Below are positions 22,799 through 42,876 of a DNA stretch of 43,930 nucleotides, piece after piece; position 1 is the first letter of the stretch; every line of letters starts with the position of its first letter. Position numbers and translations under genes: made by a program. The stretch covers positions 1 through 43,930 of the forward strand of contig JAISGK010000038.1 in the NCBI GenBank assembly GCA_031263155.1, in the 5' to 3' direction. The stretch is from Clostridiales bacterium (lineage in GTDB: Bacteria > Bacillota > Clostridia > Lachnospirales > WQUN01). The notes beneath the pieces are model-generated. The model was not told where the DNA came from. It searched no databases and saw only the letters and a program-made list of their open reading frames with translations.

Positions 22799-24571
22799 TT
22801 ACGCGTTATCCATTATCCTGTTTGCCAGCGACAGAAATACCGCCGACCCCCACGACATAAGCGGAGCGCGTATCTGCCCCTTGTCTTCTGAAAACGGGAT
22901 ATCTTGCCAGGTTTTGGGTTCCTTGCGAAAGGTGCTGTAACCCAGCGCGGGGCCATTTACTAGCACGGCGTTGAGATAACGCGCCGCTATTAATCGGGCG
23001 GCGTCTATTTTACCCGCGTCGAACAAGCCGTTGATCATTAACATATTTACCGGCGCTATAACGGGGCCTCGCGTAAACGAAAACACACGGAATTTCTCGC
23101 TCTTTTGCGATTCAGACGTGATGCCACAATCGGTGAGAAAGTCTTCTTCGTCTGTCAGCCGCGCCGTGATTTTGTCTATAATATCTTTCGGCAAACGCGA
23201 GCCCAGGCAGATGGGCTGCAACTGCGCCGCGCAACCGCACTTGTGCAGAGCGCCCGTCTTGGTCGCCTTGCCTAAAAATTGCTCGCCGTCCCATAATTCA
23301 TTAATCAAAAAGTCAATAACCCGCTGGCTTTCGCTTTGCCAACGCTCCGCTTCATCCGTTTTGTTCAGGCGTTTGGCAAGACGAGCCAACGCCTCGTTGG
23401 TAAACACCATATAGGCCATGAGATCGGGCGATTGCAACGGCAAGCCCGCCTCAAAAATGGTCGCTTCATCATACCCTGATTCGTCTGGGTGATAATACGC
23501 GGGCAAACCTGTGTGCGCGTGGTCGTGGTTGGTATACCACCATTCGCGATATTTTGACAGGCGGTCATACATACGCTCATAATCTTCTATCGCAAGAGGG
23601 GTTGTGTCAAAATTGTCCAACATGTAGCAGATGGTGTAGCCAAACAGCGGCGGCTTTGTGGATACCCATATCGCCTGGTTCATGTCGGTTACGTTATCGG
23701 GCAGTCCGCCGCGCTCGTCTTGAAAATTGAAAAACGACAGAATGAGCCGCCACGCCTCTTTTATATTTTGTCGCATCGCCAAAGCCGCAAAGCATTGCTG
23801 CCATCCAGAGGCGCAAACAAGCAGCAGTTTGTGCATGTAAACGACTGTGTCTGTGAGACTGCCTTGAGGGCCCATGCGCGATATCCACGCTATCCACGCG
23901 GCGCGGCGGGCCATTTCTTTATACACAGGGGCAACCTTGGCGTACACCGTGTTAAATTGTTCAAACTCCGCAAGCATATCGGCGCGAGCCTGGTCAAATT
24001 CCTTGTACGACTCGAAGGTCACACCGTTGGAATAATATTCGTGTATGGCTACTTCGCCCGCGCCGTCGATGCTCTCCATAATATCAATCTTGTAAGGGAA
24101 GGGAGAGACCTCTCTAAAATTCCATTGGGCCTCGGTGGTCATTACCCCGCTTATGCGCTTGAACAGCAGCTTGCCTTTGAAATTAAACGCCGCCTCCAGC
24201 TCGTTACCCTCGCGTCGTATTGCCGCGCCTTCATGCATCTCCGGCTCGTGAAAAACGCGCGCGATAACCCCGCATACGCGAACGCGCAATACCTGCGGCG
24301 TCTCGTATGTAAACTGCGCGACGCCTTCTGGGGTCTTTACGGTAAGGCAGGACTCGTCAGAATGGTAAATAAACGGCAGCTCGGTTCCCGCCTTGCCTAT
24401 AAAAGCTATACGCATGAGGTTGGGTCTGTCCAGCACAACGGCCTCGGATCGGCAATGGGTCAAGTAGAGTTGTTTGTCGCCACGAAACTGGTATATGGAC
24501 AAAAAAGCCCCCGCGCGCGAAAAAGGCGCGTCTTCCAGTGTAAACTGTCTGTTCGTTCCAAATAGTATCAT
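22799..24571 (-). CDS. (alpha/alpha)6 glycosidase-like protein, GH63/MGH1-like, copy B
   Basis: The 590-residue protein lacks a signal peptide, so it is probably cytoplasmic. An N-terminal beta-rich domain occupies about 1-200. A helical (alpha/alpha)6 domain follows with GWQQCFAALAMRQNIKEAW, GGLPDNVTDMNQAIW, PDESGYDEATIF and SWGSAVFLSLA. The ESG-Y-D motif sits where GH63/GH37-type inverting glycosidases have their acid Asp. I see no obvious Glu-containing base motif just before the SWG segment, so activity is uncertain. The ATG overlaps the stop of the upstream paralogue by ATGA, so the two are translationally coupled. With the ABC importer genes upstream, it likely trims imported oligosaccharides. 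Confidence 0.7.
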   Translation of the reverse strand: MILFGTNRQFTLEDAPFSRAGAFLSIYQFRGDKQLYLTHCRSEAVVLDRPNLMRIAFIGKAGTELPFIYHSDESCLTVKTPEGVAQFTYETPQVLRVRVCGVIARVFHEPEMHEGAAIRREGNELEAAFNFKGKLLFKRISGVMTTEAQWNFREVSPFPYKIDIMESIDGAGEVAIHEYYSNGVTFESYKEFDQARADMLAEFEQFNTVYAKVAPVYKEMARRAAWIAWISRMGPQGSLTDTVVYMHKLLLVCASGWQQCFAALAMRQNIKEAWRLILSFFNFQDERGGLPDNVTDMNQAIWVSTKPPLFGYTICYMLDNFDTTPLAIEDYERMYDRLSKYREWWYTNHDHAHTGLPAYYHPDESGYDEATIFEAGLPLQSPDLMAYMVFTNEALARLAKRLNKTDEAERWQSESQRVIDFLINELWDGEQFLGKATKTGALHKCGCAAQLQPICLGSRLPKDIIDKITARLTDEEDFLTDCGITSESQKSEKFRVFSFTRGPVIAPVNMLMINGLFDAGKIDAARLIAARYLNAVLVNGPALGYSTFRKEPKTWQDIPFSEDKGQIRAPLMSWGSAVFLSLANRIMDNA

Positions 24572-26421
24572 GCCATGACCCCCTTTTCCGCCTTGTCAGC
24601 TTTGGAATCGTTGTATAGCATCGCTCCAAGCACAAGAAACACCGCAGCGCCCCACGAGCTATAAAAACCCGGCATCATACGACCGCCTTTAAACGGCGGC
24701 AACACAGGCTTAAAGCCTGTAGGCCTGGGATCTTTCTGCGGCGGGCTTTGCACTATTGTCTGCGGCCCCACCTCAAGCGAGCGTTCACACCAGTTGTACG
24801 CGTTTTTGAGCGCCACTTCTTTTTCGCCGGCGTTGTATAACCCCACTGTCATCATCAATTGAACAGGCGCAAGAATGGTGCCCAGCATAAACGACCCATA
24901 AGTTACGTCATAATACCTGCTTTGCTGGCTTTCGGACGCGAAACCGGCAGGCATGAAAAAGGTGTCTGTATTACCCGCCGCCTCGCCAATTTTACGCCTT
25001 ATCTGTTCGGGCAGCCGCTTGCCCAGTATAATGGGCTGGTATACGGCGATGCTTTCTTCGTCAACAACCTCGCGGGTCGTGTCCATAAAGCACACGAATT
25101 TAGCGCCGTTCCAATATACCTTTATCATGGTGTCCAGCAATTCTTTTGAGCGAATGTCATATGCCCGCGCTTCTTCATGCTTGCCCATGCGGGCGGCGAG
25201 TTTGGCAATCGCTTCAAACATCAGCACAAGGAACGCGCACAAATCGGGGGTGGATGTGGGCATACCCCTGCGGAAAATGGAGGCGTCGTCCCAGCCGGAT
25301 TCGTCGGCGTGCATATACGATGGTATGCCGTCCCTATCCCTGTCCCGCAGGATGAACCAATATTCTGCCCACTTTTTCATAGGCTCGTACAGTTTTTCGC
25401 AATGCGCGGGGGTAAGGGCGTCTATACCCACGCGATCCAGGATATAGCTGAGAGCGAAGCCTTGAAATACCGGTTTCGCGGCCAGCATGGTCACGTAATG
25501 ATCGCTTACGCTGTCTGGCAGCATACCAAATTCATCCTGCACGGAAAACATGGAATACAACAGATCTATCGCGGTATCCAAATCCTTCCACAAAGCCATG
25601 GCGTGATAACTCTGATGCCAGCCCATAGCGCGCACCAGCGGCCCGTTGCGCATCATAAATACCATATTTGTTTTTACCATGCCCTTGGCGCCCAGGTAGC
25701 AGCTCCAGATAACGTATATGGCAAACAAGCGAATATGCGCGTATTTATCTGGCACAGGCTCATATTTCATGGCCCAGGCATAAAAATCGTCCCAATTCTC
25801 TTTAACGCAATCGTCAAAGCCGCGTGGCGTTGCTTTCTCCACAGTCGTTTCGGCGTAGTGGATGTAGCCATGGGTCTCGCCGTCTTTGTCTGGCGTCCAG
25901 ATGATCTCGCCGTCGTCGGCTTTTATGCTCCACGCGTCCCAGCGGGCATTGTTTGTTTGCGCGCCCTTTAACGTTTCCCACAAAAAAGACCCTATCAACG
26001 CGAACGACGCGCACACGCTGCCGTCCAAACGGTCGATAAACAATTCGTGCGGCCGCGTTTTTATAAAGAATCTGACGCCAAGGCCCCCTGTCGAGCGTAT
26101 CTGCATAGTGTTAACGCCGTCGTAACACATCTCGATTGTGCCTCCCTCGGCACACGTGCCTCTGTCGGTACACACTTTAAGAACGCCCGGGTTTGCCTGA
26201 TATGTAAAGGGTACTGCCTCGCCGTCAACCAGCGGTTCTACTTGCACAAGGTTATAGCGGTTGTATCTTTGCATGTCGTAATAGCTGTTTGATATAGAAA
26301 AGAAGAGCTTTTGCGGCCCTTCCTCCTCGGATATGTCATAGCCGTAAAGCACCATCAAACGTGACAAGCGACGACTAAACGGTATCATTGATATATCGAG
26401 ATTATTTATGGAAAAATCCAA
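24568..26421 (-). CDS. (alpha/alpha)6 glycosidase-like protein, GH63/MGH1-like, copy A
   Basis: I start this at TTG 26421, behind a run of six G residues. The frame extends to 26508, but that extension would encode a terminator hairpin, and homology to copy B begins only at this point (DFSINNL...PFSR). The product then has 617 residues. It shares the layout of copy B: a beta domain, MGWHQSYHAMALWKDLDTA, GMLPDSVSDHYVTML, ADESGWDDASIF and FYSSWGAAVFLVLG. No secretion signal is visible. The paralogues have diverged strongly, suggesting different substrates. It is downstream of the sugar-binding protein gene, separated by a hairpin that may lower its expression. Confidence 0.7.
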   Translation of the reverse strand: MDFSINNLDISMIPFSRRLSRLMVLYGYDISEEEGPQKLFFSISNSYYDMQRYNRYNLVQVEPLVDGEAVPFTYQANPGVLKVCTDRGTCAEGGTIEMCYDGVNTMQIRSTGGLGVRFFIKTRPHELFIDRLDGSVCASFALIGSFLWETLKGAQTNNARWDAWSIKADDGEIIWTPDKDGETHGYIHYAETTVEKATPRGFDDCVKENWDDFYAWAMKYEPVPDKYAHIRLFAIYVIWSCYLGAKGMVKTNMVFMMRNGPLVRAMGWHQSYHAMALWKDLDTAIDLLYSMFSVQDEFGMLPDSVSDHYVTMLAAKPVFQGFALSYILDRVGIDALTPAHCEKLYEPMKKWAEYWFILRDRDRDGIPSYMHADESGWDDASIFRRGMPTSTPDLCAFLVLMFEAIAKLAARMGKHEEARAYDIRSKELLDTMIKVYWNGAKFVCFMDTTREVVDEESIAVYQPIILGKRLPEQIRRKIGEAAGNTDTFFMPAGFASESQQSRYYDVTYGSFMLGTILAPVQLMMTVGLYNAGEKEVALKNAYNWCERSLEVGPQTIVQSPPQKDPRPTGFKPVLPPFKGGRMMPGFYSSWGAAVFLVLGAMLYNDSKADKAEKGVMA

Positions 26422-26447
26422 TGCCCATGCCCCCCAAAAAACATCAC

Positions 26448-26475
26448 AGCAGAGGCGACAACTCTCGCCTCTGCT
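26448..26475 (-). terminator. Intercistronic hairpin/terminator between binding-protein and glycosidase genes
   Basis: AGCAGAGGCGA (26448-26458) and its complement at 26465-26475 form a perfect 11-bp stem with a six-base loop. On the - strand a T6 run follows after GTGATG. It would cap the messenger of the importer genes and allow partial read-through into the glycosidases, as is common in sugar ABC operons. Confidence 0.75.
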
Positions 26476-26531
26476 TATACAAAAATAGATTGTCAGAATG
26501 CGCTTCACAAGAACACAGGGAGCCAGGTCTC

Positions 26532-28166
26532 TTAGCTATTGGCGGCCATAAATTCTCTAAGCTGTGTCTTTGTCTGTTCGAGAATCAAATCCATACCCGC
26601 TTGGTTAAGCAAGCTGATATACTCGTCAAGTTTGGCTTCTGTTTGGTCGCCGAACACTCCCAGGTCAAATGAGGTTGCCCATTCTTGGTTAAGTGAGTTG
26701 ATCAACGCGCTTTCAGCTTCAAATTCGCTATTGTCTACAGTAAAGCCGTCCACCGGGAAACGAGCGGGGTCTAGGTTCGCCTTGTCGTATTCTTCGCGTA
26801 TCGCGGCTACTTTTGGCACAATACCGCCTTCACCTGGGTTAAGCTGGCTGCGCAGACACCACGCCCAGCCGCTCCACGGGTAAGCTTCCGCTGCCGGGCC
26901 GTTGCTGTGCGAATTTGTGGCTTCGTCATAGATATAATGCTCGCCGGGTATGCCGCCTTGCAGCCAGTTGTTAATATCATAATCATTCTTCATAACGTCT
27001 ACGGCCAGCGCGGCGCGCTCAGGGTTTTTGCTGAATGACGTAATGGCCAACGCGTCATAGTTGTAGGGTGATATACGCGTGTTGCAGCCTTCTGGAAGAA
27101 TATTGAAATATTCTACTTCTACACCCTTGGCTTCCATCTGTACTATATCCTCGTTCGCGGCTTTATACATGCATATGTCAGACGCGCTTTTACCCTCTTT
27201 AAATAGATCGGTTATATGTGTTACGCCGGTTATGGCATTGGACGGCCAAACGCCCGCTTTTGCCCATTCAGCCATGCGCAGGCAATACTCTCTGTACTCT
27301 GGCGTCTCTACAGAGTTAAACAGGGAATCGGGGTTAATGACGCCTTCTTCATCGGCGTCCCATAAGGCCGCGCCGACTGTTTGCCAGTTATTGATACCCT
27401 GTAAAAAAGTAAGCGTCATTGGTACTGTGGGGTTGGCATACATAGCGAACATGCCCGTTTCTTTCTCGCCTGCCGCGACAGCCAGCAAATATTGCTCAAA
27501 TTCGGCGAATGTAGTTATTTCAGGTATGTTGTATTTATCGCGCATATCTTTGCGCACAACCACACCATACGCCTGCTCATAATCAGACGCGTTGCGGGGT
27601 ATTTGATACAGTTTGTCACGATAACTCGCTTGATTCCAGCTATTGGGAATTTGAGACTTCATGGTCTCGGGCATCCATGTCGCCAAAAAATCATCGGTCA
27701 GCTCATAGAAAGCTCCATTGTCAGCGTGGGTAGTAAACGGCCCGATGTAGGGGTGAGTCATGATAATGTCTACCTCTTCGCCGCCGGCCAGTACCAGGGG
27801 GTACTTGGTCTGAAAGTCTGACAGCGGGATAACCTCTACCTCGAATGTTGTGTTAATAAGCTCTTTCATCCTGTCGCTCGCCATGCTGACGACGCGATCA
27901 TGATCGGTGCCTTCGGTACCGACAGCATAGAATATGAGATGAACTTCCTTGGACGTGTCGAAAGAGGCCCAAGGATTGTCCGCTTCATTTTCAGCTGAAG
28001 CTGGTTCGGTTGATGCTTGCTCGGATGAAGCCTGTTCGCCGCTGCCGGCGGTAGCGGCGACGTTTGGCTCACTGGCCCCAGACGTGGTCGTTGGCGCGCC
28101 GCCCGCGCACGCGGACACCGCTATGAGCAGCGCCAAAAGCAATGCCGCTATTGAAAAACGTTTCAT
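26532..28166 (-). CDS. Extracellular sugar-binding lipoprotein of an ABC importer (LplA/YtcQ type)
   Basis: The 544-residue precursor has a lipoprotein signal peptide with lipobox AVSAC, so Cys20 is the likely lipidated residue. A Ser/Ala/Glu-rich linker reaches about residue 65. The following solute-binding fold (family 1) and C-terminal region (SALINSLNQEWATSFDLGVF, then KLDEYISLLNQAGMDLI) resemble the DUF3502 end of LplA/YtcQ proteins. These bind plant or host oligosaccharides such as pectic fragments outside the membrane. AGGAGG lies upstream of the ATG. The gene follows the two permease genes, and no ATPase gene is nearby, so a shared MsmX-type ATPase is likely (inference). Confidence 0.88.
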   Translation of the reverse strand: MKRFSIAALLLALLIAVSACAGGAPTTTSGASEPNVAATAGSGEQASSEQASTEPASAENEADNPWASFDTSKEVHLIFYAVGTEGTDHDRVVSMASDRMKELINTTFEVEVIPLSDFQTKYPLVLAGGEEVDIIMTHPYIGPFTTHADNGAFYELTDDFLATWMPETMKSQIPNSWNQASYRDKLYQIPRNASDYEQAYGVVVRKDMRDKYNIPEITTFAEFEQYLLAVAAGEKETGMFAMYANPTVPMTLTFLQGINNWQTVGAALWDADEEGVINPDSLFNSVETPEYREYCLRMAEWAKAGVWPSNAITGVTHITDLFKEGKSASDICMYKAANEDIVQMEAKGVEVEYFNILPEGCNTRISPYNYDALAITSFSKNPERAALAVDVMKNDYDINNWLQGGIPGEHYIYDEATNSHSNGPAAEAYPWSGWAWCLRSQLNPGEGGIVPKVAAIREEYDKANLDPARFPVDGFTVDNSEFEAESALINSLNQEWATSFDLGVFGDQTEAKLDEYISLLNQAGMDLILEQTKTQLREFMAANS

Positions 28167-28227: not shown

Positions 28228-29130
28228 TTAACCCTTTACCGCGCCGATAGTAAGACCTTTTACAAAGTACCTTTGCACGAATGGGTACAAAAGTATAATA
28301 GGCCCGGTAGTTATAACTGTCATAGCCATTTTGAGCGTTTCGGTCGGCAACGATATGCGTATGGTGCTGGCGGAACCGCCCAACGATACCAGGTTTTTTA
28401 ACGCCTGTATGCTGTTAATCATTTCCTGCAAGAAGTACTGCAAACTCATCTTCTCTTCTTTTGTTATGTATAATAGTGTGCTGTACCAGTCGTTCCAATA
28501 CGCCAGCGCGGAAAACAGGCCCAGCGTAGCGACAAGCGGTTTGCACAGCGGCAAAATAAGCCTGAAAAATATTAAGATATCGTTTGCCCCGTCTACCTTT
28601 GCGCTCTCGGTAATCTCATACGGCACGCTCGTGATGAAACTTTTGGCGATAATCATGTTCCATACCGAAAACATAAGCGGCAGCAACAACGCGGCGTAAT
28701 TATTTTTAAATCCCAAATATCTTACACACAATATGTATGTTGGAACCAACCCGCCGTTAAAAAGCGTGGTGAAAAAGAAAAACAATGAAAACCCATTGCG
28801 TTGAGGGAAGTCCCTGCGTTGCAGCACATAGCCGGTCATGGTAGCTATAAGCACAGCGCAAGCCGTGCCAATTACCGTGACTGCTATAGTGTTGCGATAC
28901 GACCAGAAGATTCGTTGCGGGTTACCAAACGCCAGAGAGTATGCTTGGGTAGAAAACTCTTTTATAAAAAATGTGTACCCGTTGCGCATCAGCGACGCCT
29001 CGCTGGTAAAAGAGGTTACCAACACCAGCAGAAACGGCAGTACGCACGCCAATCCAAACAGCGTGACCAACAAATATCCAAAGGCGTTAAAGATCATCTT
29101 ATCTTTTTGAATGATTTTACGCGGCGTCAT
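28228..29130 (-). CDS. Sugar ABC permease, LplC/YtcP type
   Basis: The 300-residue protein has six membrane segments and the ABC permease EAA loop near residues 180-205 (ITESAKVDGANDILIFFRLI). It ends in YFVKGLTIGAVKG, a typical C-terminus of CUT1-type permeases of the LplC group. It forms the channel with the next-upstream permease. It starts 15 bases after that gene, behind GGGGG. Confidence 0.92.
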   Translation of the reverse strand: MTPRKIIQKDKMIFNAFGYLLVTLFGLACVLPFLLVLVTSFTSEASLMRNGYTFFIKEFSTQAYSLAFGNPQRIFWSYRNTIAVTVIGTACAVLIATMTGYVLQRRDFPQRNGFSLFFFFTTLFNGGLVPTYILCVRYLGFKNNYAALLLPLMFSVWNMIIAKSFITSVPYEITESAKVDGANDILIFFRLILPLCKPLVATLGLFSALAYWNDWYSTLLYITKEEKMSLQYFLQEMINSIQALKNLVSLGGSASTIRISLPTETLKMAMTVITTGPIILLYPFVQRYFVKGLTIGAVKG

Positions 29131-29145: not shown

Positions 29146-30099
29146 TTAGAATAGAGAATAATCTGGCTGCAATTTTTTAATGATGCCGTTAACGGTCATG
29201 ATTGTTATGAAACACAACACAGACTGAAACAATCCCGCCGCGCTCGCCATGCCCATATCACTGGTAGAGGCCAGGGCGCGGTAGATAAACAGATCCAAAA
29301 TATCGGCCTTTTCCAGCAATGCGGCGTTGTTGCCCACCAATTGGTAAAACAGTCCGAAATCGCCTCTAAACACCTGACCCAACGCCAGTAGAAACAGGAT
29401 GATCATAGTGGGCACAAGGCAGGGCAGGGTTATGCGCCTTATGCGCTGCAAAAGGCTCGCGCCGTCTATCTGCGCCGCCTCGTGCAACTCCGGGTCTATG
29501 CCGGTAATGGCCGCGAGATATACCACTGTGCCGTAACCGGCGGTTTTCCAGGCTCTAAACATAACTATCAGGTACGGCCATAAGCCGGGGGAGTCGTACA
29601 GGTTAATACGGGTGCCGCCCAAAGCGGAAATAACCCCGTTGATCATTCCATATTCGTAGCTAAATAGCGCTTGAACAATGGCGGCTACCACAACCCATGA
29701 TATGAAGTAGGGTAAAAACATAAACGATTGAAACGCGCGTTTAAATACGCGATTGCCCAGCTCGTTTATAATAATGGCAAAGCCAACTTCTAGAATAACG
29801 CCCACCGATATAAACGCCAGGTTGTATAACAGCGTATTGCGCACCAGAAACCATAGCTTGTTAGACATAAACAGAAATCGGAAATTTTTAAGACCAACCC
29901 AGTCGCTTCCAAAAATACCTTTAACATAATTAAAATTTTTGAAAGCCAATACTATGCCCGTCATTGGTAAATAAGCGAATACAATTACATAAATAATGGC
30001 CGGAAGCAACATGATTAAGAGGAAACGGTTGTTCCATGTGGTACGGAAAAATCTGCGGTAATCAAAATGTTCACGCTTGCGCTCCGTCGCGTTTTGCAT
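29146..30099 (-). CDS. Sugar ABC permease, LplB/YteP type
   Basis: ATG 30099 is preferred over the TTG at 30105 because GGGGG then has normal spacing. The 317-residue protein has six membrane helices and an EAA loop reading ELHEAAQIDGASLLQRIRRI. It matches the LplB/YteP permease of CUT1 importers. It is the first gene of the importer operon. The preceding - strand gap holds a TATAAT at 30136-30141, without a clear -35, which would suit an activator-dependent promoter. Confidence 0.92.
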   Translation of the reverse strand: MQNATERKREHFDYRRFFRTTWNNRFLLIMLLPAIIYVIVFAYLPMTGIVLAFKNFNYVKGIFGSDWVGLKNFRFLFMSNKLWFLVRNTLLYNLAFISVGVILEVGFAIIINELGNRVFKRAFQSFMFLPYFISWVVVAAIVQALFSYEYGMINGVISALGGTRINLYDSPGLWPYLIVMFRAWKTAGYGTVVYLAAITGIDPELHEAAQIDGASLLQRIRRITLPCLVPTMIILFLLALGQVFRGDFGLFYQLVGNNAALLEKADILDLFIYRALASTSDMGMASAAGLFQSVLCFITIMTVNGIIKKLQPDYSLF

Positions 30100-30148
30100 T
30101 ACCAAGCCCCCTTTCCATTCAACTTTACTGTATACATTATATTAAAAA

Positions 30149-30180: not shown

Positions 30181-30221
30181 TGTTCATAAAAATCTTGCGG
30201 TCATATCGAAATTACTGATAT

Positions 30222-30510: not shown

Positions 30511-30556
30511 GGCAAAATCCTTTTGTGAAAACGCACAGTTAGAGTTTTTGAGGGAG

Positions 30557-32452
30557 CTAGGGCGCTGGCTGCTCGCCTTTTTTAAGGCGAATGGTAACTG
30601 TAACGCCGCTATCTGTCCAATCGCCATCGGGCGGGCTTTTAAAGCTAAGTCCATAGCCCCGCCCATAATAGGCTATTAACCGCTCTCGTATGTTTTTTAA
30701 ACCGTAATGGCTGCCTCCTACAGACATATCGTTCGCCAGCTGCAAGCCGTGAGAAACCTGCGTGAGCCGCTCGGCTGACATGCCAACGCCGTTGTCTGTG
30801 ACCTGTATGATCAAGTCAGGCCCGTCTTCACTCGCGGTTATTTTTATTGTGCCCTTGGGATCAGTTTTTTTAAGAACGCCGTGTTTTATCGCGTTTTCTA
30901 CAATGGGCTGCAATATTATGTTGGGTACCGACGCGCCTAGCAGGTTGTTTGGTACGTCAATTACAAGGGTTATGGCCCCGCGATAGCGAATGTTTTGGAT
31001 ACTGTGGTACGCTTCTGTGAGTTTTATTTCGCCGGCAAGATCGCCTATGTCGCTGCCCCTGTTAAGGCACAGCCTATAAAATCGCGACAATAGCTCTACT
31101 ATGCGTTCCACTTCTTCCGGCTTGCTCTCGTAGGCGTAGTAGTTTATCATCTCCAGCGTGTTATACAAAAAATGAGGGTTTATCTGCGCCATCAGGGCTT
31201 TCATTTCAGCCTTCTTTTGGTTCTCGGCGGCAAGTTTTTGCGCTATGGTAAGCATTTTTAATTCTTCGGTCAAATAGTTGTAGCTTTCGACCAAGGTACC
31301 CAATTCGTCGCCTTCGGTTGCGTTTGGCAAAGGTTGAAGCGCCCCGTTTTTGAGGTTGCGCATATGGTTAGACACTATACTTACCCGATGGCTTATACGG
31401 CGAGAAAATAGTACCGATATAACAAATATGCCTACCCCGCAGACCAGAGCGCTTATAAGAATACTCGCCCACTGCCTGTCGTCCAGTACGCTGTTGTATT
31501 TCGCGCCGTAGGGTATTAGCATGATAAGCCGCCATGGATTTTGCCTAAAAGCGCGCGCAAGCGCCTGATAACGCGTACCGCCAATGACAACATCGCTCCA
31601 GGTGACCGTGCTGAATTGCTCGCCGGGTATGCCTAGCGCTGTTTCCACTACACTTTCGCCCGACGACGCGCAGGTTATAATATGACCGTCGTCTTCCAAA
31701 AGGATTTGCGAACCTTTTGTCATGGGCAGAGAATTGGCCAGCGTATCGCGCAGGAGGTTTTCGGCAAAGGTTATTCGCAGTATGGACATCGTTTCATAAT
31801 AATCCGCAGGTTTGCATACACGCACCAGGTATGAAAGCGTTTCGTCGCCCTTTTCGTATTGCCAGGTATTCTTGTATGGCTTGGATACCAGCGACTGATA
31901 CCACTGGTCCTCGCTGACAGATTTAATTGGAAAATAGGTGGTATTGTCCAGTATAAAGTCGTTAGCGTCGCTAACATACATTAAAAGTCGCATGTTCCAT
32001 ATGTTTCTGTTCTCTATAAAACTTACCAGGGTATTGACATGACTTTTGATTTTGGTTTGCGAAAGGGCGGGTTGTGTGTCCAGCCCATATTGAAGCAGTT
32101 CACGCGCTGAGGCGTCAATTTGCAGAGTTGTTACGTTGCGGTGTATGTAATCGAAGTTATTGGACAAAACCGCGTAGAGCAAATCGAATGAGTGAACAGC
32201 GGTGGCGCGGGATCGGCTTGACATTGTGCTTGTAACATAGATATTGAACAGGGCCAGCGATATAAACAGCGGCACAAATACCGAAAACATAACCAGCGCG
32301 TGAAGCTTTGTACCCAAGCGCATATATTTTATATGGCCTTTAAACAGGCGATACAGCCGTGAAGCGAGCATAACGCCATGAGGCATAACGCCATGAGGCG
32401 TGGCGCTGTGATTTTTATCGCTTAGATCTTTATTGCTTGATCGAACGCTCAT
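30557..32452 (-). CDS. Sensor histidine kinase, YesM type
   Basis: The 631-residue protein has a cytoplasmic N-tail with a duplicated PHGVM, a membrane helix at about 50-72, an extracellular sensor region to about 325 and a second helix near 328-350. A HAMP domain and a His_kinase domain follow with the phospho-acceptor motif QINPHFLYNTLEMINYY (His427). The ATPase domain has QPIVENAIKHG (N box), DNGVGM and GLKNIRERL. It is the class of kinase that pairs with AraC-type regulators to control sugar uptake genes. Its ATG overlaps the regulator stop (ATGA). The downstream importer suggests the inducing signal is an oligosaccharide. Confidence 0.92.
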   Translation of the reverse strand: MSVRSSNKDLSDKNHSATPHGVMPHGVMLASRLYRLFKGHIKYMRLGTKLHALVMFSVFVPLFISLALFNIYVTSTMSSRSRATAVHSFDLLYAVLSNNFDYIHRNVTTLQIDASARELLQYGLDTQPALSQTKIKSHVNTLVSFIENRNIWNMRLLMYVSDANDFILDNTTYFPIKSVSEDQWYQSLVSKPYKNTWQYEKGDETLSYLVRVCKPADYYETMSILRITFAENLLRDTLANSLPMTKGSQILLEDDGHIITCASSGESVVETALGIPGEQFSTVTWSDVVIGGTRYQALARAFRQNPWRLIMLIPYGAKYNSVLDDRQWASILISALVCGVGIFVISVLFSRRISHRVSIVSNHMRNLKNGALQPLPNATEGDELGTLVESYNYLTEELKMLTIAQKLAAENQKKAEMKALMAQINPHFLYNTLEMINYYAYESKPEEVERIVELLSRFYRLCLNRGSDIGDLAGEIKLTEAYHSIQNIRYRGAITLVIDVPNNLLGASVPNIILQPIVENAIKHGVLKKTDPKGTIKITASEDGPDLIIQVTDNGVGMSAERLTQVSHGLQLANDMSVGGSHYGLKNIRERLIAYYGRGYGLSFKSPPDGDWTDSGVTVTIRLKKGEQPAP

Positions 32453-34068
32453 GCCTGTTTGACGCCGGGGCTGTAGCCCGTTTCGCGCTTAAACGCGTAA
32501 GAAAAGTAATTGGCGTTGCGGTAACCGACCAGACGGGCCAGGTCTTTAACCCTATATGCCCCCGTTTGCAGCAGTTCTTTCGCTTTGTCTATGCGTTGAC
32601 GGGTAATATATTCTCCAATTGTCGTACCCAGCGTGTCTTTGAACAAGTGGCAGATATATGTAGGTGTAAGGTGTATGTCGTCTGAGATCATGGTGACGCT
32701 AAGATCAGGGTTGTCATAGCTTTGCTTAATAAATCCAATGATATGGTTAACCGTACTGTTGTTGGTTTTGTGTTGGGTTTGTTCGTAATATCGTTTGACG
32801 GTGTTAAGCGTAAAGTCGCATAAATCATCCAGAAAAGGCAGGTCGTGTATGTAGTCCCATACGTCGTACTCATCCGCGAAGGCGTCAAGGATTTTGACGT
32901 TCTCCCTCGCGGCGGCGCGTATAACCATGCCCAATACATTGGAAAAAAATCTTACGACCTGACTCGGCGGTGTGGCGTTGCGCATCTTTATAGACGACGC
33001 CAGATTGGCGAGCATGTCGTTAAAATGCTGGGGCTCCGCTTTTGTAAGGGCTTGGGAGAAGTTCGCCAGCGGGATGTGTTCCATATCGTAAGGGGTAAGA
33101 TCGTAGTCGCGATAGTGACAGATGCATCCAGGGCCGTTATAGTAGCAATAAGACAGCGCCTGCTGGGCGGTGGTGTACGACTCGGGAAAGACATCGGGCA
33201 AACGTCCAGATTTGCCAATCGCGCATACGCTTTTAATATTTAGGTCGCGCAGGCGATTAATGAGGTTGTTGAGGTATGGCTCTATCTTTTCGCGGCGACG
33301 GAACGAGTAGCTTCTACAGAATAGGTGTACTGCGGCGCGATCGTGCTTTACAAAGCCTACAGCGACAGATTCGTTATCATGAAACACATCGTTAAGGACG
33401 GCGGCAAAGCTGGCGTCATAAAGCGATGGCTCATCATAAAGCGGTGGCTCGCCGCCATGTGATTGATCATCGTCGCGCGATTGTCTGTCGCCGCGCAATG
33501 GTTCGCTGGGCGTATTGATAAGTCTTAGCGCTACCGATACATAATATGTAAAATCGCTGGAGCCTGAAAGTTGCCGTACAGATTCCGCCGCCTCACTTAC
33601 GGTGTCTGACTTTGTAAGTCCCCTTGCGGCTGATATCAACTGCTCCTGCCGTGTTTTGCTCTGATACTTGTCAAGGTCGCTCTTTAAAAAATGTTCGCGC
33701 CGTAGATCGCTTGCGGCCTTGCGTATAGAATCCGATAACTCCTGTATATTGATGGGTTTTTCGACAAAATTAATCGCGCGCAGGCGGATAGCGCCCCGCA
33801 GGGCGGAGACATCAGAATACCCGCTAATGAAGATGATTTTGCAGTCAGGGTTAGCGCGGGTAACCTCTTCCGCCAGTTGTAGGCCATTCATATTAGGCAA
33901 ACGTACATCGGTTAAAAGAACATCAGGCGAGCAGTCGTTAAGCATACGCACTGCCTCCACGCCGCAGCTTGCCTGGCGCACATCGTCTATGCCAAGGTCA
34001 TTCCAGTTAAGCTGTCTTAGTATTCTTTCGCGTACAAAGAATTCGTCGTCAACCAAAAGTAAGCGCAT
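32449..34068 (-). CDS. AraC-family response regulator, YesN type
   Basis: ATG 34068 is used because GGGGTGA lies just upstream; an ATG at 34083 has no such site. The 539-residue protein has a receiver domain with D7-D8 and phospho-acceptor Asp54 (VLLTDVRLPNMNG) and the conserved Lys in VEKPI. A long middle region follows, and a C-terminal AraC helix-turn-helix pair covers about the last 100 residues (HLTPTYICHLFKDTLG, ARLVGYRNANYFSYAFKRET). It should bind DNA near the importer and possibly the divergent MoaF operon. It is co-transcribed with the kinase gene. Confidence 0.92.
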   Translation of the reverse strand: MRLLLVDDEFFVRERILRQLNWNDLGIDDVRQASCGVEAVRMLNDCSPDVLLTDVRLPNMNGLQLAEEVTRANPDCKIIFISGYSDVSALRGAIRLRAINFVEKPINIQELSDSIRKAASDLRREHFLKSDLDKYQSKTRQEQLISAARGLTKSDTVSEAAESVRQLSGSSDFTYYVSVALRLINTPSEPLRGDRQSRDDDQSHGGEPPLYDEPSLYDASFAAVLNDVFHDNESVAVGFVKHDRAAVHLFCRSYSFRRREKIEPYLNNLINRLRDLNIKSVCAIGKSGRLPDVFPESYTTAQQALSYCYYNGPGCICHYRDYDLTPYDMEHIPLANFSQALTKAEPQHFNDMLANLASSIKMRNATPPSQVVRFFSNVLGMVIRAAARENVKILDAFADEYDVWDYIHDLPFLDDLCDFTLNTVKRYYEQTQHKTNNSTVNHIIGFIKQSYDNPDLSVTMISDDIHLTPTYICHLFKDTLGTTIGEYITRQRIDKAKELLQTGAYRVKDLARLVGYRNANYFSYAFKRETGYSPGVKQA

Positions 34069-34113
34069 AGTTTCACCCCACATGCGGCATGTTATAATAT
34101 ATTTATGCGTATA

Positions 34114-34141
34114 ATTCTACATTATTTTAGGGTTTTGTCAA
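34114..34141 (-). promoter_or_regulatory. SigA-type promoter of the two-component operon
   Basis: On the - strand TTGACA (34136-34141), a 16-base spacer and TAGAAT (34114-34119) form a near-consensus promoter about 45 bases before the regulator start. The rest of the divergent gap holds a GCGCCT/AGGCGC hairpin at 34165-34179. I could not place a convincing promoter for the + strand genes. Confidence 0.6.
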
Positions 34142-34241
34142 GGACGTTAACGCCTTACGGGCGAGCGCCTTACAGGCGCAGCGGGAATTATCATATTTCA
34201 GATAATCGCAGATAACCATATAAAATGGAGGGATGGAACAT

Positions 34242-35129
34242 ATGGCGAAACCTTATTACGGCCTAACGGCGGAAGCGCCGGTTTTTGAAGGCATGAGCCA
34301 GTACCGCGACCCGCTTAACTATGAGCTTTGCGGCAAAAGGACGCGTCTGGTTTTTGACGATGGCCAAACGTACATCGTTAACTTTTTAAGCGGCAGCACA
34401 TTATCCTGGTCCAGGTACGGCGCGCAGGGGTCAGTGGAGTATTACGAATGTGCCAAGATCGCGGACGCCTATTTTGTCAATTTTGAACTTGCCGACGCGC
34501 CCCCAAGGGTTAATATAACGCTGGTATTGGACGCTCCGCAGCGCCTTGTTACCATGGTAATCACCAAAACGGATTATGATGAGCAATACCCTTACATGTG
34601 CGAGAGCGAATATTTTTTTGGATACATCGACACGCCCGGCTATCCCGCGCCCAAGCACAGACACGCCTTTACCGCCGACTTGGTGGGCAAGCGGATACAT
34701 TGGCACTATAACCCCGGGCTGGAGATTATACATGTATACTATTGTACCGATTATTGCCGCGTAACATTCCCCCCGGCTACAGCATGGGGCGACGCTTCGC
34801 CGGAAGAGTGGGAAGCGATGTTGGAGCGCGCGCCATACGATGAAAAGGCGGCCTATATTAAGGTGCGCGATGGGCTGTACCTGGTTAGCGTGCTAGAGCA
34901 AAACATGTCGCGCAGGGGTCTTACCGGCAATTCATTGCTGTTTCTGATAGACGCCAAGCGCGTTCATGATGTGGGCAGGTCGTTTGGCCACGCGGGGCTG
35001 CAAGAGGGCAATGTGCATGGAGAAAACTACATCTTTGGGGCCTATGGAAATTTTGTGTACAGCGATGGCAAGCTGGAAGCCAAGCCCAATATCTATTTAC
35101 AACAAAACAAGCCAGGCGAGGTGAATTAA
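34242..35129 (+). CDS. MoaF-family two-lobe lipocalin-like protein, class A, copy 1
   Basis: ATG 34242 is chosen because GGAGGG lies at 34227-34232, directly abutting the other candidate ATG at 34233. The 295-residue protein has two beta-barrel-like halves: an N-terminal lobe (GKRTRLVFDDG ... NITLVLDAPQRLVTMVI) and a C-terminal lobe (DLVGKRIHWHYNPGLEIIHV, YLVSVLEQNMSRRGLTGNSL and VHDVGRSFG). These resemble the MoaF domains (PF10703/PF17409), named from a gene in a molybdenum-cofactor cluster but of unproven function. No signal peptide is visible. Its stop overlaps the next start (TAATG), so the operon is translationally coupled. It is closest to the fused copy at 37421. Confidence 0.75.
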   Translation: MAKPYYGLTAEAPVFEGMSQYRDPLNYELCGKRTRLVFDDGQTYIVNFLSGSTLSWSRYGAQGSVEYYECAKIADAYFVNFELADAPPRVNITLVLDAPQRLVTMVITKTDYDEQYPYMCESEYFFGYIDTPGYPAPKHRHAFTADLVGKRIHWHYNPGLEIIHVYYCTDYCRVTFPPATAWGDASPEEWEAMLERAPYDEKAAYIKVRDGLYLVSVLEQNMSRRGLTGNSLLFLIDAKRVHDVGRSFGHAGLQEGNVHGENYIFGAYGNFVYSDGKLEAKPNIYLQQNKPGEVN

Positions 35130-36004
35130 TGGCGCTTAACCTTTATCCCCAATTTACAGCGGAAGAGATTGATGAAATAGTTCGCCAGTCTACCGACTAT
35201 ATACACGGCGGGCTGGAAAAAATGCGCCCTCCCTATTATGAAAAGCTGACGGGCACGCGGTTAACATTGCGCTTTGACAATGGGCGCGCCTTGTACTACT
35301 CTTTTTCTGACGCGCATACCTTAACGTGGAGCGACGACGCGGGCGAGCCGAAAGAGGAATATTACGACGCGCTTGAGGCGGATGACGGCATAATCTTTTT
35401 TGAACATATTGTGAAGGGAACAAGCCCGCAGCAGGCGCGTATGATTGTTCTTGACACACATGAAAAACTGGTGACAGCGTTTTTTGCCCAAATTGGCAAT
35501 GAGGTATCCACACGCGAGGTGGATCGCGATATAGTGTTTGGATACATAGACGATGGTGGATATCATGAAAAACGCCATTCGCTTACGACCGATCTGGTAG
35601 GCCGCTCCATAGTATGGACATATTCGCCAGAGTTTGCCATTCAACATATCTATGCCTCCCAGTGGTATTCATGTTTTGTTGATTTTAACACCTTTTACGG
35701 CGGGAACCTGCTTAGCTCGCCCTGCAACTATGTTAAAATAAATGATCACGTGTATATATATTCGTGGGTAGAGACAGAAGGCGCGGGCGTGCAAGGCTTT
35801 GTGCTGATGAACCTGTTTGACATGCATGATGTGGGATGCTTTTTTGGCATTAACGGGAGCAGCAAATTTGAGTGCTATACATTTGGGGCGACGGGCGAGT
35901 ATGTGGGGCAGCTTGCCAGCCTGCATATCCCTAACGATATGAATAAAGATTATTCATGGCCTCCGTTTATCGATCAGTCTATTGATGAAGGAGGAGAGGG
36001 ATGA
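35129..36004 (+). CDS. MoaF-family protein, class B, copy 2
   Basis: This 291-residue protein starts in a TAATG overlap and ends in an ATGA overlap. It keeps the two-lobe layout: an N-terminal lobe with GTRLTLRFDNG, LTWSDDAG and MIVLDTHEKLVTAFF, and a C-terminal lobe with DLVGRSIVWTYSPEFAIQHI, VYIYSWVETEGAGVQGFVLM and MHDVGCFFG. The His-Asp-Val-Gly motif is kept. The QNMSRRG-TGNSL loop of class A is replaced by a shorter VET-GAG-QG loop. It lacks the C-terminal NVHGENY segment of copies 1 and 4. Different ligands or a hetero-oligomer are possible. No biochemical function is known to me. Confidence 0.7.
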   Translation: MALNLYPQFTAEEIDEIVRQSTDYIHGGLEKMRPPYYEKLTGTRLTLRFDNGRALYYSFSDAHTLTWSDDAGEPKEEYYDALEADDGIIFFEHIVKGTSPQQARMIVLDTHEKLVTAFFAQIGNEVSTREVDRDIVFGYIDDGGYHEKRHSLTTDLVGRSIVWTYSPEFAIQHIYASQWYSCFVDFNTFYGGNLLSSPCNYVKINDHVYIYSWVETEGAGVQGFVLMNLFDMHDVGCFFGINGSSKFECYTFGATGEYVGQLASLHIPNDMNKDYSWPPFIDQSIDEGGEG

Positions 36005-36858
36005 ACCAGTTATTACGCCCATACAGACCGCACAGAATGGCCGTTGAAATGACAGAGCGGGAAGTGTTTGAGCTTGCTGAACTTGCGCAATTGTCACCGG
36101 AATATAAAACCGGTGATCTAATAGGCAAGCGCCCGGCTTTCTCCAGTGCCCTGGCCGGAATGGATATGGCCCTAAAGGCTGACAACGGCGGGCCGGAGAT
36201 AAAGTATAGATTTGTGGACGCCCATAAAATGTTATGGGACGATGGCGCGGGGGAACGCGAAGAATACTACGAGGCGCTGCAAATTGACAAAGCGGTGTAC
36301 CTTGTCGCGTATCTTCAAAAAAACAGCCGCCCGGTTACAAGCTGTAGTATTGTACTTGACCTTGAAATGAACCTGCAAACTATGATAATATCTCCCTTGG
36401 GAGCGTCTCCCTTATCGGCGCGGTATGTAGAGCAGCGCGTTTATCATGGTTATATTGAGCGTGAAGGGGCGCCGCGTCCAGTCGCCTGGCGGCATCAGCC
36501 CACGCGTGATTTATCGGGGCACAGTATGGGCTGGTCGTACCGCGATGACATGACTAGCCAGCACATCTTTGGCTCGCCATATTCCATAGCCTGGGTAATA
36601 TTGCAGGGCCCCGGATCAGGCTTGCTTGGTTGCGCGCCCGCCAAATATTTCAGGATAAAAGAGCATGTGTATCTGTACACCTGGGTAGAAACGTTTGGCT
36701 CTGGCCAGCAGGGTGTCGTTTTGATGAACAAAAAGATTATGCATGACGTAGGTACTTTTTATGGCATAACGCATGGACAGCGCTTTGAGTTTTATACCTA
36801 CGGCGCGCGGGGCTACGACCTTGGCGCGTATGATGTAGCACGGTTTTTTAAATGGTGA
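36001..36858 (+). CDS. MoaF-family protein, class B, copy 3
   Basis: The 285-residue protein starts behind GGAGGAGAGG in an ATGA overlap with copy 2. It has KYRFVDAHKMLWDDGAGERE in its N-terminal lobe. The C-terminal lobe has RDLSGHSMGWSYRDDMTSQH, VYLYTWVETFGSGQQGVVLM and MHDVGTFYG, so it groups with copy 2. The N-terminal 45 residues differ from the other copies. HDVG and the W-x-Y core of the second lobe are conserved in all four. Its TGA lies inside a GGTGAC/GTCACC palindrome that begins a repeat array. Confidence 0.68.
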   Translation: MNQLLRPYRPHRMAVEMTEREVFELAELAQLSPEYKTGDLIGKRPAFSSALAGMDMALKADNGGPEIKYRFVDAHKMLWDDGAGEREEYYEALQIDKAVYLVAYLQKNSRPVTSCSIVLDLEMNLQTMIISPLGASPLSARYVEQRVYHGYIEREGAPRPVAWRHQPTRDLSGHSMGWSYRDDMTSQHIFGSPYSIAWVILQGPGSGLLGCAPAKYFRIKEHVYLYTWVETFGSGQQGVVLMNKKIMHDVGTFYGITHGQRFEFYTYGARGYDLGAYDVARFFKW

Positions 36859-36913
36859 CAGTCACCCATGGTGATTAAGTCACCGTGGTGATAAAGTTAC
36901 GCGACAAGTCACC
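36854..36913 (+). promoter_or_regulatory. Alternating GGTGA/TCACC array
   Basis: Six pentamers alternate in orientation: GGTGA 36854, TCACC 36862, GGTGA 36870, TCACC 36880, GGTGA 36887 and TCACC 36909. Neighbouring pairs form several overlapping palindromes, including GGTGACAGTCACC. The array fills the gap before the split-barrel gene, whose ribosome binding site follows. It may be an operator for a dimeric regulator or an RNA hairpin that separates expression of the two operon halves. Confidence 0.5.
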
Positions 36914-36940
36914 TCACTATACTTTTTAGGAGGAAATAGA

Positions 36941-37351
36941 ATGAAGGACGTTTTAGACTTTATCAAAGAAACAGGCGTGGGCTATATCGCCACTGTTGAG
37001 GGCGGCAAGCAGCCTAGAGTACGCGCGTTTGGATTTGGGTTTTACGAAGACGGCAAGTTCTGGTTTTGCACCAATAACACCAAAAAGGTGTTCTCACAGC
37101 TTAAAGAAACGCCCTATGCCGAGATAATGTTCACCAAGCCCGATTTTTCAAAGTACCTGCGGCTTAGTGGCCATGTGGTGTTTGAGAATAGCGTCGAGGC
37201 CAAAGCAAAGGTTATGGACGCGATGCCTGGTGTAAAAGGCATATATCAAACACCAGACAATCCAATTTTCGAGGTGTTTTATCTTGAAAACGGCGAAGCC
37301 GTACTTGAGGCGTTCCCGCCGACGGCGCCGCCCAAAGTGGTAAAATTTTAA
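36941..37351 (+). CDS. Pyridoxamine-phosphate-oxidase-like FMN split-barrel protein
   Basis: The 136-residue protein starts behind AGGAGG. It has the short split-barrel layout: GVGYIATVEGGKQPRVRAFG near residues 12-31, FWFCTNNTKKVFSQLKETPY near 44-63, and a late IFEVFYLENGEAVL. Proteins of this size in the pyridoxamine 5'-phosphate oxidase-like superfamily bind FMN, F420 or haem and reduce small molecules. Full-length PdxH features are missing, so vitamin B6 synthesis is unlikely. Position between MoaF genes and a Rossmann-MoaF fusion suggests a redox role in the same pathway. Confidence 0.8.
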   Translation: MKDVLDFIKETGVGYIATVEGGKQPRVRAFGFGFYEDGKFWFCTNNTKKVFSQLKETPYAEIMFTKPDFSKYLRLSGHVVFENSVEAKAKVMDAMPGVKGIYQTPDNPIFEVFYLENGEAVLEAFPPTAPPKVVKF

Positions 37352-37420
37352 TCAATCCCATCCAATCAACTTGATGCGATTGACAATAGTTGGGAAAGAA
37401 TCTGATGGCGAGGTGTTTGC

Positions 37421-39010
37421 ATGAAAATTGGTATTATCGGCGCAAATGGCAAGGCAGGGGCGCTGATTGCTAAAGAAGCCCTCGAACGCGGGCACGAAGT
37501 CACGGCGATAGTGCGCGATAAGGCTAAAATAGAAGGAAAAGGTTTTCAGCAAGTGATAGAGCGCGATATTTACGACCTTGATCCGTCCGACATAGCCCAC
37601 CTGGATGCCGTAGTCAGCGCGTTTGGTCTGCCGTTTGGCGAAGAACACCACGACGTTTACAAAAATGCGCTGGCAAGGCTTATAGAAATTTTTAAAAAGA
37701 TACCGCAGGTTAGATTGTTAGTGGTGGGCGGGGCCGCGAGTTTGTATACCGACCCGCGCAAAGCGCATCAATATATTGAGCAGATACCAGAGGCTTGGCG
37801 CAGAGACCCTGCGGATATGATGGAAGGGTTTAAGCTGCTGCAAAACAGCGACGTTAACTGGACGTATTTTTCTCCCGCGTACATGTTTGATTATGGCGGC
37901 AAGCGTACAGGGGCGTATACCCTTGGCGGCGATTTCGCCATAACCAACGCGTCCAACGAAAGCTATATAAGCTATGCTGACTACGCCATTGCCATGGTAG
38001 ACGAGATAGAAAACGCGTTTCATGCGCGTCGCAGGTTTACAGCCGTTTCAGACAGCAAGCCTGACGCGCCTGAAGGCGTTGCGCCCGAGCCGGAGAAACC
38101 AAAAGACGAGGGAACACAGCCAGCCGCCGCGCCAAATCCCGATGGATATTATGGCATTTATGACAAAGAGCCAAGTTTTGAGGGCATGTCGCAGTATCGC
38201 GCGCCGCTTAACTTTGAACTGGCCGGTAAAGAGTTTAAGCTGGTTATGAATCTAGAGAAAGACTTTTATGTAAAATTCCTTAGCGGTACCCTGTTAGAAT
38301 GGAACGAATGGGGAGCGAGCGCGACAAAAGAGTCTTATGAGTGCGGCAAGGTAGATGAGCTGACATACTTTGTTAATTTCGAACTTGCCGGGGTAAAGCC
38401 GCGAACCAATATAAGCCTTGTGTTGGACATGGAACAAAGGCTGGTCACTTTTGTTAGGTCTGTCACTAACTTTAACGACAAGTGGCCCTATTTGATAAAG
38501 AGTGACTTTGACTTTGGCGCTATAGACCTGGAGGGATACCCGCTGCCGTTTATACGTCACGGGTACACGGCGGATCTGGTAGGCAAGCGTATACATTGGC
38601 GGTACACCCCGAAGTGGGAGATCATTCATGTGTACTACAGCCCATACTATATGCGCGGTACCTTCCCGCCAGACAGCCCGGCCCTAAGGGGTATGCCTGC
38701 CCCCACCCCGGAAGATATGGAGAATTGGAGCAAGTATCCATACGACGAACCGACAACGTACATTAAGATTAAAGATGGCGTTTATCTTGTTAGCTGCATA
38801 GAGCAAAACATGTCGCGGCGGGGTGCAACGGGCAACAGCCTACTGTTCCTTATGGATACAAAGCGCCTGCATGATGTTGGCCGTTCGTTTGGGCACACAG
38901 GGCAAAAAGAAGGCAATGTGCATGGTGAAAACTATCTGTTTAGCGCGTATGGCGAGTTTGTATATTCCGACGGCGAGATAGAGAAGCAAAAGAATGTGTG
39001 GATACCCTGA
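37421..39010 (+). CDS. NAD(P)-binding Rossmann domain fused to a MoaF module
   Basis: The 529-residue protein begins with an atypical SDR/NmrA-like domain: MKIGIIGANGKAGALIAKEA (GxxGxxG) at 1-20, VVSAFGLPFGEEHH near 64-77 and LLVVGGAASLYTDP near 99-112, up to about residue 206. A Pro/Glu/Ala-rich linker at about 207-241 leads into a complete class A MoaF module (ELAGKEFKLV, DLVGKRIHWRYTPKWEIIHV, EQNMSRRGATGNSLLF, LHDVGRSFG). The linker and the close match to copy 1 argue for a true fusion rather than an assembly join. The first domain suggests reduction or isomerisation of a substrate that the MoaF module binds or also transforms (inference). It ends the operon. Confidence 0.8.
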   Translation: MKIGIIGANGKAGALIAKEALERGHEVTAIVRDKAKIEGKGFQQVIERDIYDLDPSDIAHLDAVVSAFGLPFGEEHHDVYKNALARLIEIFKKIPQVRLLVVGGAASLYTDPRKAHQYIEQIPEAWRRDPADMMEGFKLLQNSDVNWTYFSPAYMFDYGGKRTGAYTLGGDFAITNASNESYISYADYAIAMVDEIENAFHARRRFTAVSDSKPDAPEGVAPEPEKPKDEGTQPAAAPNPDGYYGIYDKEPSFEGMSQYRAPLNFELAGKEFKLVMNLEKDFYVKFLSGTLLEWNEWGASATKESYECGKVDELTYFVNFELAGVKPRTNISLVLDMEQRLVTFVRSVTNFNDKWPYLIKSDFDFGAIDLEGYPLPFIRHGYTADLVGKRIHWRYTPKWEIIHVYYSPYYMRGTFPPDSPALRGMPAPTPEDMENWSKYPYDEPTTYIKIKDGVYLVSCIEQNMSRRGATGNSLLFLMDTKRLHDVGRSFGHTGQKEGNVHGENYLFSAYGEFVYSDGEIEKQKNVWIP

Positions 39011-39022
39011 CCTGATCAAAGA

Positions 39023-39051
39023 CCCCCCGTCTTAAAAAAGCGGGGGGTTTT
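39023..39051 (+). terminator. Terminator of the MoaF operon
   Basis: CCCCCCG (39023-39029) and CGGGGGG (39041-39047) form a strong stem with an 11-base loop followed by four T residues, 12 bases after the fusion gene stop. Confidence 0.9.
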
Positions 39052-41956: not shown

Positions 41957-41957
41957 T

Positions 41958-42872: not shown

Positions 42873-42876
42873 ACCT

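Follow-up and report, generated by a model that had tools for sequence, protein, structure and literature searches.

A divergent gene set joining MoaF barrels to reductase-like proteins and glycosidases in a clostridial genome, with a possible role in the reduction of plant phenolic glycosides

The window analyzed here is a stretch of 43,930 nucleotides, the contig JAISGK010000038.1 (positions 1 to 43,930) of the Clostridiales bacterium assembly GCA_031263155.1, and it carries a divergent gene set centered on proteins of the MoaF family. The plus-strand arm comprises three coupled MoaF genes, a gene for a small PNPOx-type split-barrel protein and one for a fusion of a Rossmann domain with a fourth MoaF copy; the minus-strand arm (22799-34083) codes for a YesMN-type regulatory pair, components of an ATP-binding cassette (ABC) importer and a pair of glycosidases. 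The full layout spans 22799-39010 (Table 1), and suggests that both arms are regulated together. A sequence-only reading of this DNA had described the plus-strand genes as a single dedicated unit, closed by a terminator and devoid of any other molybdenum-cofactor gene, and had proposed that it carries out reductive steps on ligands derived from a glycosylated plant or host compound. All five genes lie where it had placed them, so that the observation itself is confirmed, and the single dedicated unit is supported; its interpretation for this bacterium is partly supported. MoaF copies 1 and 2, as well as 2 and 3, are coupled by stop/start codon overlaps, and the database version of copy 1, with 295 residues, fits a start at 34242. 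The proposed terminator is borne out by a hairpin 3' of the fusion gene (-22.3 kcal/mol, z -4.5, with 1 of 200 shuffles folding as well), which was not in the output of the consensus scan.

Table 1. Features of the divergent MoaF locus
Feature	Position	Strand	Basis or remark
MoaF copy 1 (class A)	34242..35129	+	start may be 34233
MoaF copy 2 (class B)	35129..36004	+	predicted structure: two 8-stranded barrels, pLDDT 88
MoaF copy 3 (class B)	36001..36858	+	Pfam and alignment
Small PNPOx-type split-barrel protein	36941..37351	+	nearest solved structure 2ig6 (NimC/NimA family)
Rossmann-MoaF fusion (MoaF copy 4, class A)	37421..39010	+	Pfam and predicted structure
Terminator-like hairpin with T run	39019..39051	+	folding versus shuffles
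Gap between divergent arms (149 bases), likely promoter region	34084..34232		both arms face away
Sigma-70-like site, 11/12	34141-34114	-	consensus scan
YesN-type response regulator, AraC-type output domain	32449..34083	-	
YesM-type sensor histidine kinase (PF06580)	30557..32452	-	
ABC importer permease (PF00528)	29146..30105	-	
ABC importer permease (PF00528), other copy	28228..29130	-	
Importer solute-binding protein (PF13416)	26532..28166	-	
MGH1-like glycosidase, second of pair	24568..26508	-	true start probably inside frame
MGH1-like glycosidase, first of pair	22799..24571	-	

All four MoaF copies score above the curated cut-off of PF10703 and three of them above that of PF17409, with the fusion falling 0.3 bit short of the latter (21.8 versus 22.1 bits). 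As had been perceived from the sequence, they fall into two classes: copies 1 and 4 (class A) share 58% identity and copies 2 and 3 (class B) 37%, versus 30 and 27% between copy 1 and copies 2 and 3, and the HDVG and W-x-Y motifs are invariant in all four. Structure prediction for a member of each class (copy 2 for class B, copy 4 for class A) gave the same fold in both rather than the unrelated folds that had been considered as a possible counter-indication. This is the two-barrel fold of 4q51, an uncharacterized MoaF protein from Burkholderia cenocepacia (~20% identity), which has Y-x-Y and lacks HDVG, whereas the window family has W-x-Y. Fold searches with the models recovered the MoaF crystal structure, one small barrel, and then phenolic acid decarboxylases (PADs) as the nearest structures, with avidin and lipocalin-like folds ranking after them. 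The N- and C-terminal barrels of one MoaF protein each match PAD by fold, and no likeness between the two was detectable by profile comparison. Short matches of class A to SUMO in the PDB were regarded as chance.

The fusion protein is composed of an NADH-flavin-reductase-like Rossmann domain (residues ~1-214), a low-confidence linker (215-238) and a class A MoaF module (~242-529). The Rossmann half is above the cut-off of PF13460 (NAD_binding_10), with a fitting fold; its matches to short-chain dehydrogenase/reductase (SDR) models are far under their cut-offs, and it does not qualify as a FabG-like SDR. It resembles the putative NADH-flavin reductase 4r01 (38% identity) and biliverdin reductase B in fold and sequence, but differs from both in being joined to MoaF by a probably flexible linker. 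The small PNPOx-type protein matches PF01243 with 48.4 bits (cut-off 28.1) and belongs to the same split-barrel family as 2ig6, a PNPOx-like NimC/NimA protein (E 1.4e-22), from which it is set apart by its linkage, through position and fusion, to MoaF and glycosidases; an F420-dependent PPOX reductase was rejected, since TIGR03618 gave 26.3 bits against a cut-off of 79.05. Together the two proteins make plausible partners of MoaF in reduction, and to that extent the proposed reductive steps can be upheld. The glycosidases are above the cut-off of PF22422 (MGH1-like; 95.3 and 60.3 bits), and inspection by eye revealed no signal peptide in either.

To our collection belong 213 protein relatives of copy 1 at E<=0.001, itself included, and 83 among the best 120 of these are Rossmann-MoaF fusions; class B amounts to 29 proteins including copy 2. 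PF10703 has a match in 7 of the 196 genomes of our set of relatives (the window genome included). A 24-sequence class A alignment, scanned against species genomes, yielded 43 loci, every one of which is titled as a metagenome-assembled genome or as uncultured, with Clostridia-type group names. The titles of 17 loci name the gut or faeces of goats, sheep, water buffalo, yaks or horses, by which the close relatives of the window bacterium include gut dwellers; several other loci, judging by their isolate codes, presumably come from termites and rumen. After inspection of the neighborhoods we divided the loci into 14 close ones (L020-L033, with the best E-values to copy 1) and 29 distant ones (L034-L062). 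Among them L032, L037 and L057 stem from one assembly, and L029 and L062, the latter a fragment, from another.

With many contigs breaking off close to the cluster, the neighbor counts are lower bounds, and they are raw counts without a matched background for the importer and YesMN genes. The close loci contain class B MoaF in at least 9 of 14 cases, a Rossmann protein in 12 (in all 12 as fusions, totaling 17 open reading frames), a solute-binding protein in 9, the two permeases in 9 and 7, YesM in 8, YesN in 7, a glycosidase in 5, and MatE and PNPOx proteins (E<1e-10) in 4 each. The corresponding numbers for the 29 distant loci are 0 for class B MoaF, 1 for Rossmann, 2 for PNPOx, 1 for glycosidase, 0 for the solute-binding protein, 2 for permeases, 0 for YesM, 1 for YesN and 1 for MatE; neither class B copies nor Rossmann-MoaF fusions were found in these 29 loci. 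At the looser threshold of E<1e-5 a PNPOx protein occurs in 15 of the 43 loci in addition to the window. The complete set thus marks the closest relatives, and MoaF with the PNPOx protein is retained more widely. The expectation of a conserved neighborhood accordingly holds for relatives, which keep varying subsets of the parts together, but it is not universal.

Relatives also fuse the parts in four ways, namely as Rossmann-MoaF, MoaF-PNPOx (P0072), glycosidase-PNPOx (P0151 and P0150, the start of which looks cut) and glycosidase-Rossmann-MoaF. When the PNPOx part of P0072 was searched against long proteins only, 3 of 102 candidates matched: P0072, P0150 and P0151. The triple fusion is a single frame (L028:6579-9914) reading glycosidase, Rossmann and MoaF, and could reflect an assembly that lost a stop codon. 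In L024, L027, L028 and L030 one protein holds two class B-type MoaF units. That glycosidase, PNPOx, Rossmann and MoaF proteins constitute one functional set is well supported by these fusions, which weigh more than the neighborhood of importer and YesMN genes, these being common in such genomes. The suggested link of the unit to the divergent YesMN and importer-glycosidase genes is sustained by shared neighborhoods along with the fusions.

Further proteins recur around these relatives. Clustering of 44 sources placed a family of 150-253 residues (c1) in 21 of them; it may be a half barrel, and none of the three members tested had a Pfam match. The distant loci L036, L049, L054, L058, L059 and L060 share a cluster (c8) whose one member tested (L058) is a class III CoA-transferase, and L053, L059 and L060 share another (c18), whose sole tested member (L059) is an old-yellow-enzyme-type reductase. 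Near a cluster of MoaF, Rossmann-MoaF and PNPOx, L033:2-1225, truncated where the contig or locus ends, codes for a flavocytochrome c-like protein, which scores 100.7 of 600 bits with a vinyl phenol reductase model, far under the cut-off. A same-family genome of 8.8 Mb encodes an 898-residue protein (L065:1102-3798) with a MoaF domain in its middle and, by eye, a signal-like stretch near its start.

The window genome itself offers two more loci for comparison. A fifth MoaF gene lies on contig C95 in the order permease, permease, binding protein, MoaF, PNPOx and major facilitator superfamily transporter (by eye, with MoaF and PNPOx by Pfam), an order that recurs in a same-family genome (L064). 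The genome has four PNPOx homologues in 2.75 Mb, so that 0.007 would be expected per average 5 kb, and two of the four adjoin MoaF. Contig C18 has a lone Rossmann protein (E 1.1e-94) with an HxlR-type regulator (by eye), importer genes, a glycosidase pair and an aldo/keto reductase (partly by eye); PF10703 has no match on this contig, and the locus appears to be a MoaF-free version of the set.

The likeness of MoaF to PAD, evident as a PAD-type barrel in the predicted fold, extends to the sequence for class B. In PDB profile searches PADs come next after 4q51 both for class B (6 of 14 rows, best E 0.012) and for canonical MoaF (6 of 9 rows, best E 0.0045). With hhalign the class B C-terminal barrel scores 26.7 against PAD, versus at most 10.9 in 39 shuffles; the C-terminal barrel of the fusion scores 14.3 (no shuffles), and the N-terminal part of canonical MoaF 25.2 with no shuffle control. 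Moreover, another genome of the phylum (L072) encodes a single-barrel protein above the cut-off of PF22036 and just under those of PF10703 and PF05870, followed by a Rossmann homologue (8.8e-57); it seems to bridge the MoaF and PAD families, again beside a Rossmann reductase. PAD itself was not detected in any of the 146 genomes of the order, and 7 genomes of a 398-genome phylum sample had a match, 5 of them above the cut-off; these 5 served as our PAD sequences, the other 2 (one a MoaF-like protein, one with stop codons) being dropped.

In the register given by the profile alignments with PAD, we examined the PAD active-site positions in 130 rows (24 single class A proteins, 76 fusions and 30 class B proteins) picked from the homologues of copies 1 and 2. 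In the C-terminal barrel the place of the first PAD tyrosine is taken by tryptophan in 130/130 rows, the second tyrosine is kept in 130/130, and the catalytic glutamate in 128/130, the others showing one gap and one glutamine. Nothing in the class B alignment corresponds to the PAD arginine, and class A has an insertion at this place. Canonical MoaF proteins (n=18), which lack HDVG, have tyrosine (10) or phenylalanine (8) at the first place, tyrosine at the second in 18/18 and the glutamate in 18/18. According to PMC13358373 and PMC10116590, PAD depends on two tyrosines, an arginine and a glutamate and acts via a quinone methide, and PADs are described in PMC5488193 as also adding nucleophiles across hydroxystyrenes. 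The MoaF C-terminal barrel thus shares with PAD (PF05870; BsPAD, FDC) its fold, the catalytic glutamate and a single tyrosine of the pair; MoaF differs in the presence of two barrels, the tryptophan, the HDVG motif and the absence of a PF05870 match, for which there was no row with the window proteins at E<=0.1. The window proteins are not taken for true phenolic acid decarboxylases, given W-x-Y instead of Y-x-Y and the unmatched PF05870. Going by predicted models and alignments, the MoaF barrel may have retained phenol-binding and acid-base features in part.

MoaF genes outside this group were collected with tblastn using canonical MoaF, which hit 42 plasmid records; of the 19 examined, 5 had no listed genes at the site and 14 were annotated. 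An SDR lies within two genes of MoaF in 13 of the 14 annotated loci, the exception being Paenarthrobacter, and a gene for aromatic compounds lies within 4-5 kb in 9 of 14: hpaB or its N-terminal domain, hpaH and hpaI, hpaD, a PheA/TfdB monooxygenase (the Paenarthrobacter locus), or an arylsulfatase with the monoamine regulator. These are not all independent events, as 7 of the 14 belong to a rhizobial-type group with similar gene order (five Rhizobium, Agrobacterium and Roseateles) and two K. variicola records hold an identical MoaF protein. By annotation, the regulator of the monoamine regulon lies within 6 kb of a Klebsiella record together with arylsulfatase genes, MoaE and MoaF; this MoaE is annotated as fabG-like, and its 25 best SDR-model scores of 120-167 bits are below the cut-offs of those models. 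The moaEF genes of the Klebsiella aerogenes monoamine regulon and the proteobacterial MoaF-SDR pairs hence resemble the window in placing MoaF beside a Rossmann oxidoreductase, with a regulator and often a transporter nearby. However, their partner is a classical SDR encoded by a separate gene, while that of the window is an NAD_binding_10 domain fused to MoaF and accompanied by glycosidases, a PNPOx-type protein and two MoaF classes. The window system represents a new form of the MoaF-Rossmann pair, in which the two are fused and linked to glycosidases.

Taken together, these observations lead us to propose, with a probability of about 0.42, that the divergent set imports a plant phenolic glycoside, likely removes its sugar and likely reduces the released phenolic part. 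YesMN would sense the glycoside and turn on both arms, the importer would carry the intact glycoside into the cell, and cytoplasmic cleavage would fall to the two glycosidases. The C-terminal barrel of MoaF could then bind a phenol-like ring in the manner of PAD through its conserved tyrosine and tryptophan, its glutamate acting as the acid-base group for a proton shift or the elimination of a leaving group, and hydride would be supplied by the NAD(P)H-binding half of the copy 4 fusion together with the PNPOx-type protein. The several MoaF copies in two classes might serve successive steps or several aglycones. The functional link of the parts is well supported and we have high confidence that they act in one pathway. 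The phenolic nature of the substrate is moderately supported: the phenolic reading gains from the PAD-like fold and the phenolic-catabolism neighbors of other MoaF genes, which also favor the earlier idea of a glycosylated plant compound, itself still conjectural. For a phenolic aglycone on the substrate we would put the chances just short of even. That the chemistry is quinone-methide reduction is unlikely. A little more doubtful still is a specific version that casts the Rossmann-MoaF fusion as a two-site enzyme for reductive cleavage, its PAD-like C-terminal barrel expelling a benzylic group from a para-hydroxyphenyl compound to give a quinone methide that the tethered NAD(P)H domain reduces.

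Several results weigh against this proposal. The class A profile search of the PDB had 0 of 26 rows for PAD, and in hhalign class A reached only 10.3, which is weak beside 8.6 for the best of 39 shuffles; the canonical C-terminal barrel, at 19.6 versus 23.6 for the best of 60 shuffles, was not significant, and the N-terminal barrels of the window classes failed or were marginal. Sequence kinship to PAD beyond class B therewith appears to fail or to be marginal. Decarboxylation proper by the MoaF barrel is unlikely because one PAD tyrosine is a tryptophan and the arginine has no class B counterpart. Models matched by the glycosidases are of MGH1-like and trehalase type, with a weak match to an alpha-glucosidase, and include no known aryl-glycosidase family; some relatives have GH95, a xylosidase-like enzyme or a nucleoside phosphorylase nearby, which would fit sugar or mixed substrates; and of the 29 distant loci just one has the Rossmann protein and one the glycosidases. 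No MoaF protein has, to our knowledge, an established activity or ligand, and no activity, ligand or functional study turned up among the papers listed in the literature searched, which lacked most subscription papers.

A rival possibility is that MoaF, Rossmann and PNPOx proteins act on the sugar rather than on an aglycone, with an unusual oligosaccharide imported and a keto- or anhydro-sugar epimerized, dehydrated or reduced. Oligosaccharides are commonly served by YesMN together with such importers, PNPOx and, in one open frame, Rossmann-MoaF occur as fusion partners of glycosidases, and GH95 and xylosidase-like genes adjoin some relatives. We consider this rather improbable, as the predicted fold and residues indicate PAD and other MoaF genes have 4-hydroxyphenylacetate or monoamine genes as neighbors. 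Somewhat less probable again is that the barrels are non-catalytic binders in the fashion of lipocalins or avidins, holding toxic plant phenolics or shuttling flavin or another ligand to the reductases: the avidin and lipocalin-like folds in the fold search and the several paralogues in one cluster, which would suit a binding repertoire, speak for it, but the near-invariant tryptophan, tyrosine and glutamate of the 130 rows, with the glutamate of all canonical MoaF proteins, suit catalysis better. A further reading, very improbable in our view, makes the Rossmann domain an enzyme resembling biliverdin reductase B and the barrels binders of host or dietary tetrapyrroles or flavins.

There remains the annotation itself, which names these proteins as 'molybdenum cofactor biosynthesis F family protein' in databases and would make the locus a molybdenum-cofactor gene cluster. 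The Pfam name MoaF, we believe, derives from the work on moaEF. These genes are named as part of the monoamine regulon in a paper title in the reference list of PMC9386226. MoaA (PF06463), MoaC (PF01967) and MoeA (PF03453) have no match at E<=0.001 in the 92.5% complete window genome, although each was detected in 11 of 14 control genomes, in keeping with what the sequence-only reading had surmised from the window. On these three marker families the cluster was rejected, and we regard it as exceedingly improbable; in view of the missing markers and the monoamine association, the molybdenum name is misleading for the window family.

If the proposed handling of phenolic glycosides is right, a family annotated for the molybdenum cofactor would instead consist of phenol-handling barrels, and herbivore-gut bacteria would hold a module for reducing plant phenolic glycosides. 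Should the two-site version also be true, gut anaerobes would own a cofactor-light, oxygen-free means of cleaving glycosylated lignan- or phenylpropanoid-type compounds. The fusions permit the hypothesis to be tested on single polypeptides.

Two minor features of the window deserve mention. The gap before the PNPOx gene (36859-36913) contains repeated GTCACC/GGTGA words (two 17-base copies at 82% and three 8-base copies), which are possibly a regulator site, or chance. Past the regulon, 39263-43400 codes for an MmeI-type restriction-modification enzyme, a protein of 304 residues that no Pfam model matches, and an N-terminal piece of DUF1016, and is possibly a defence region.

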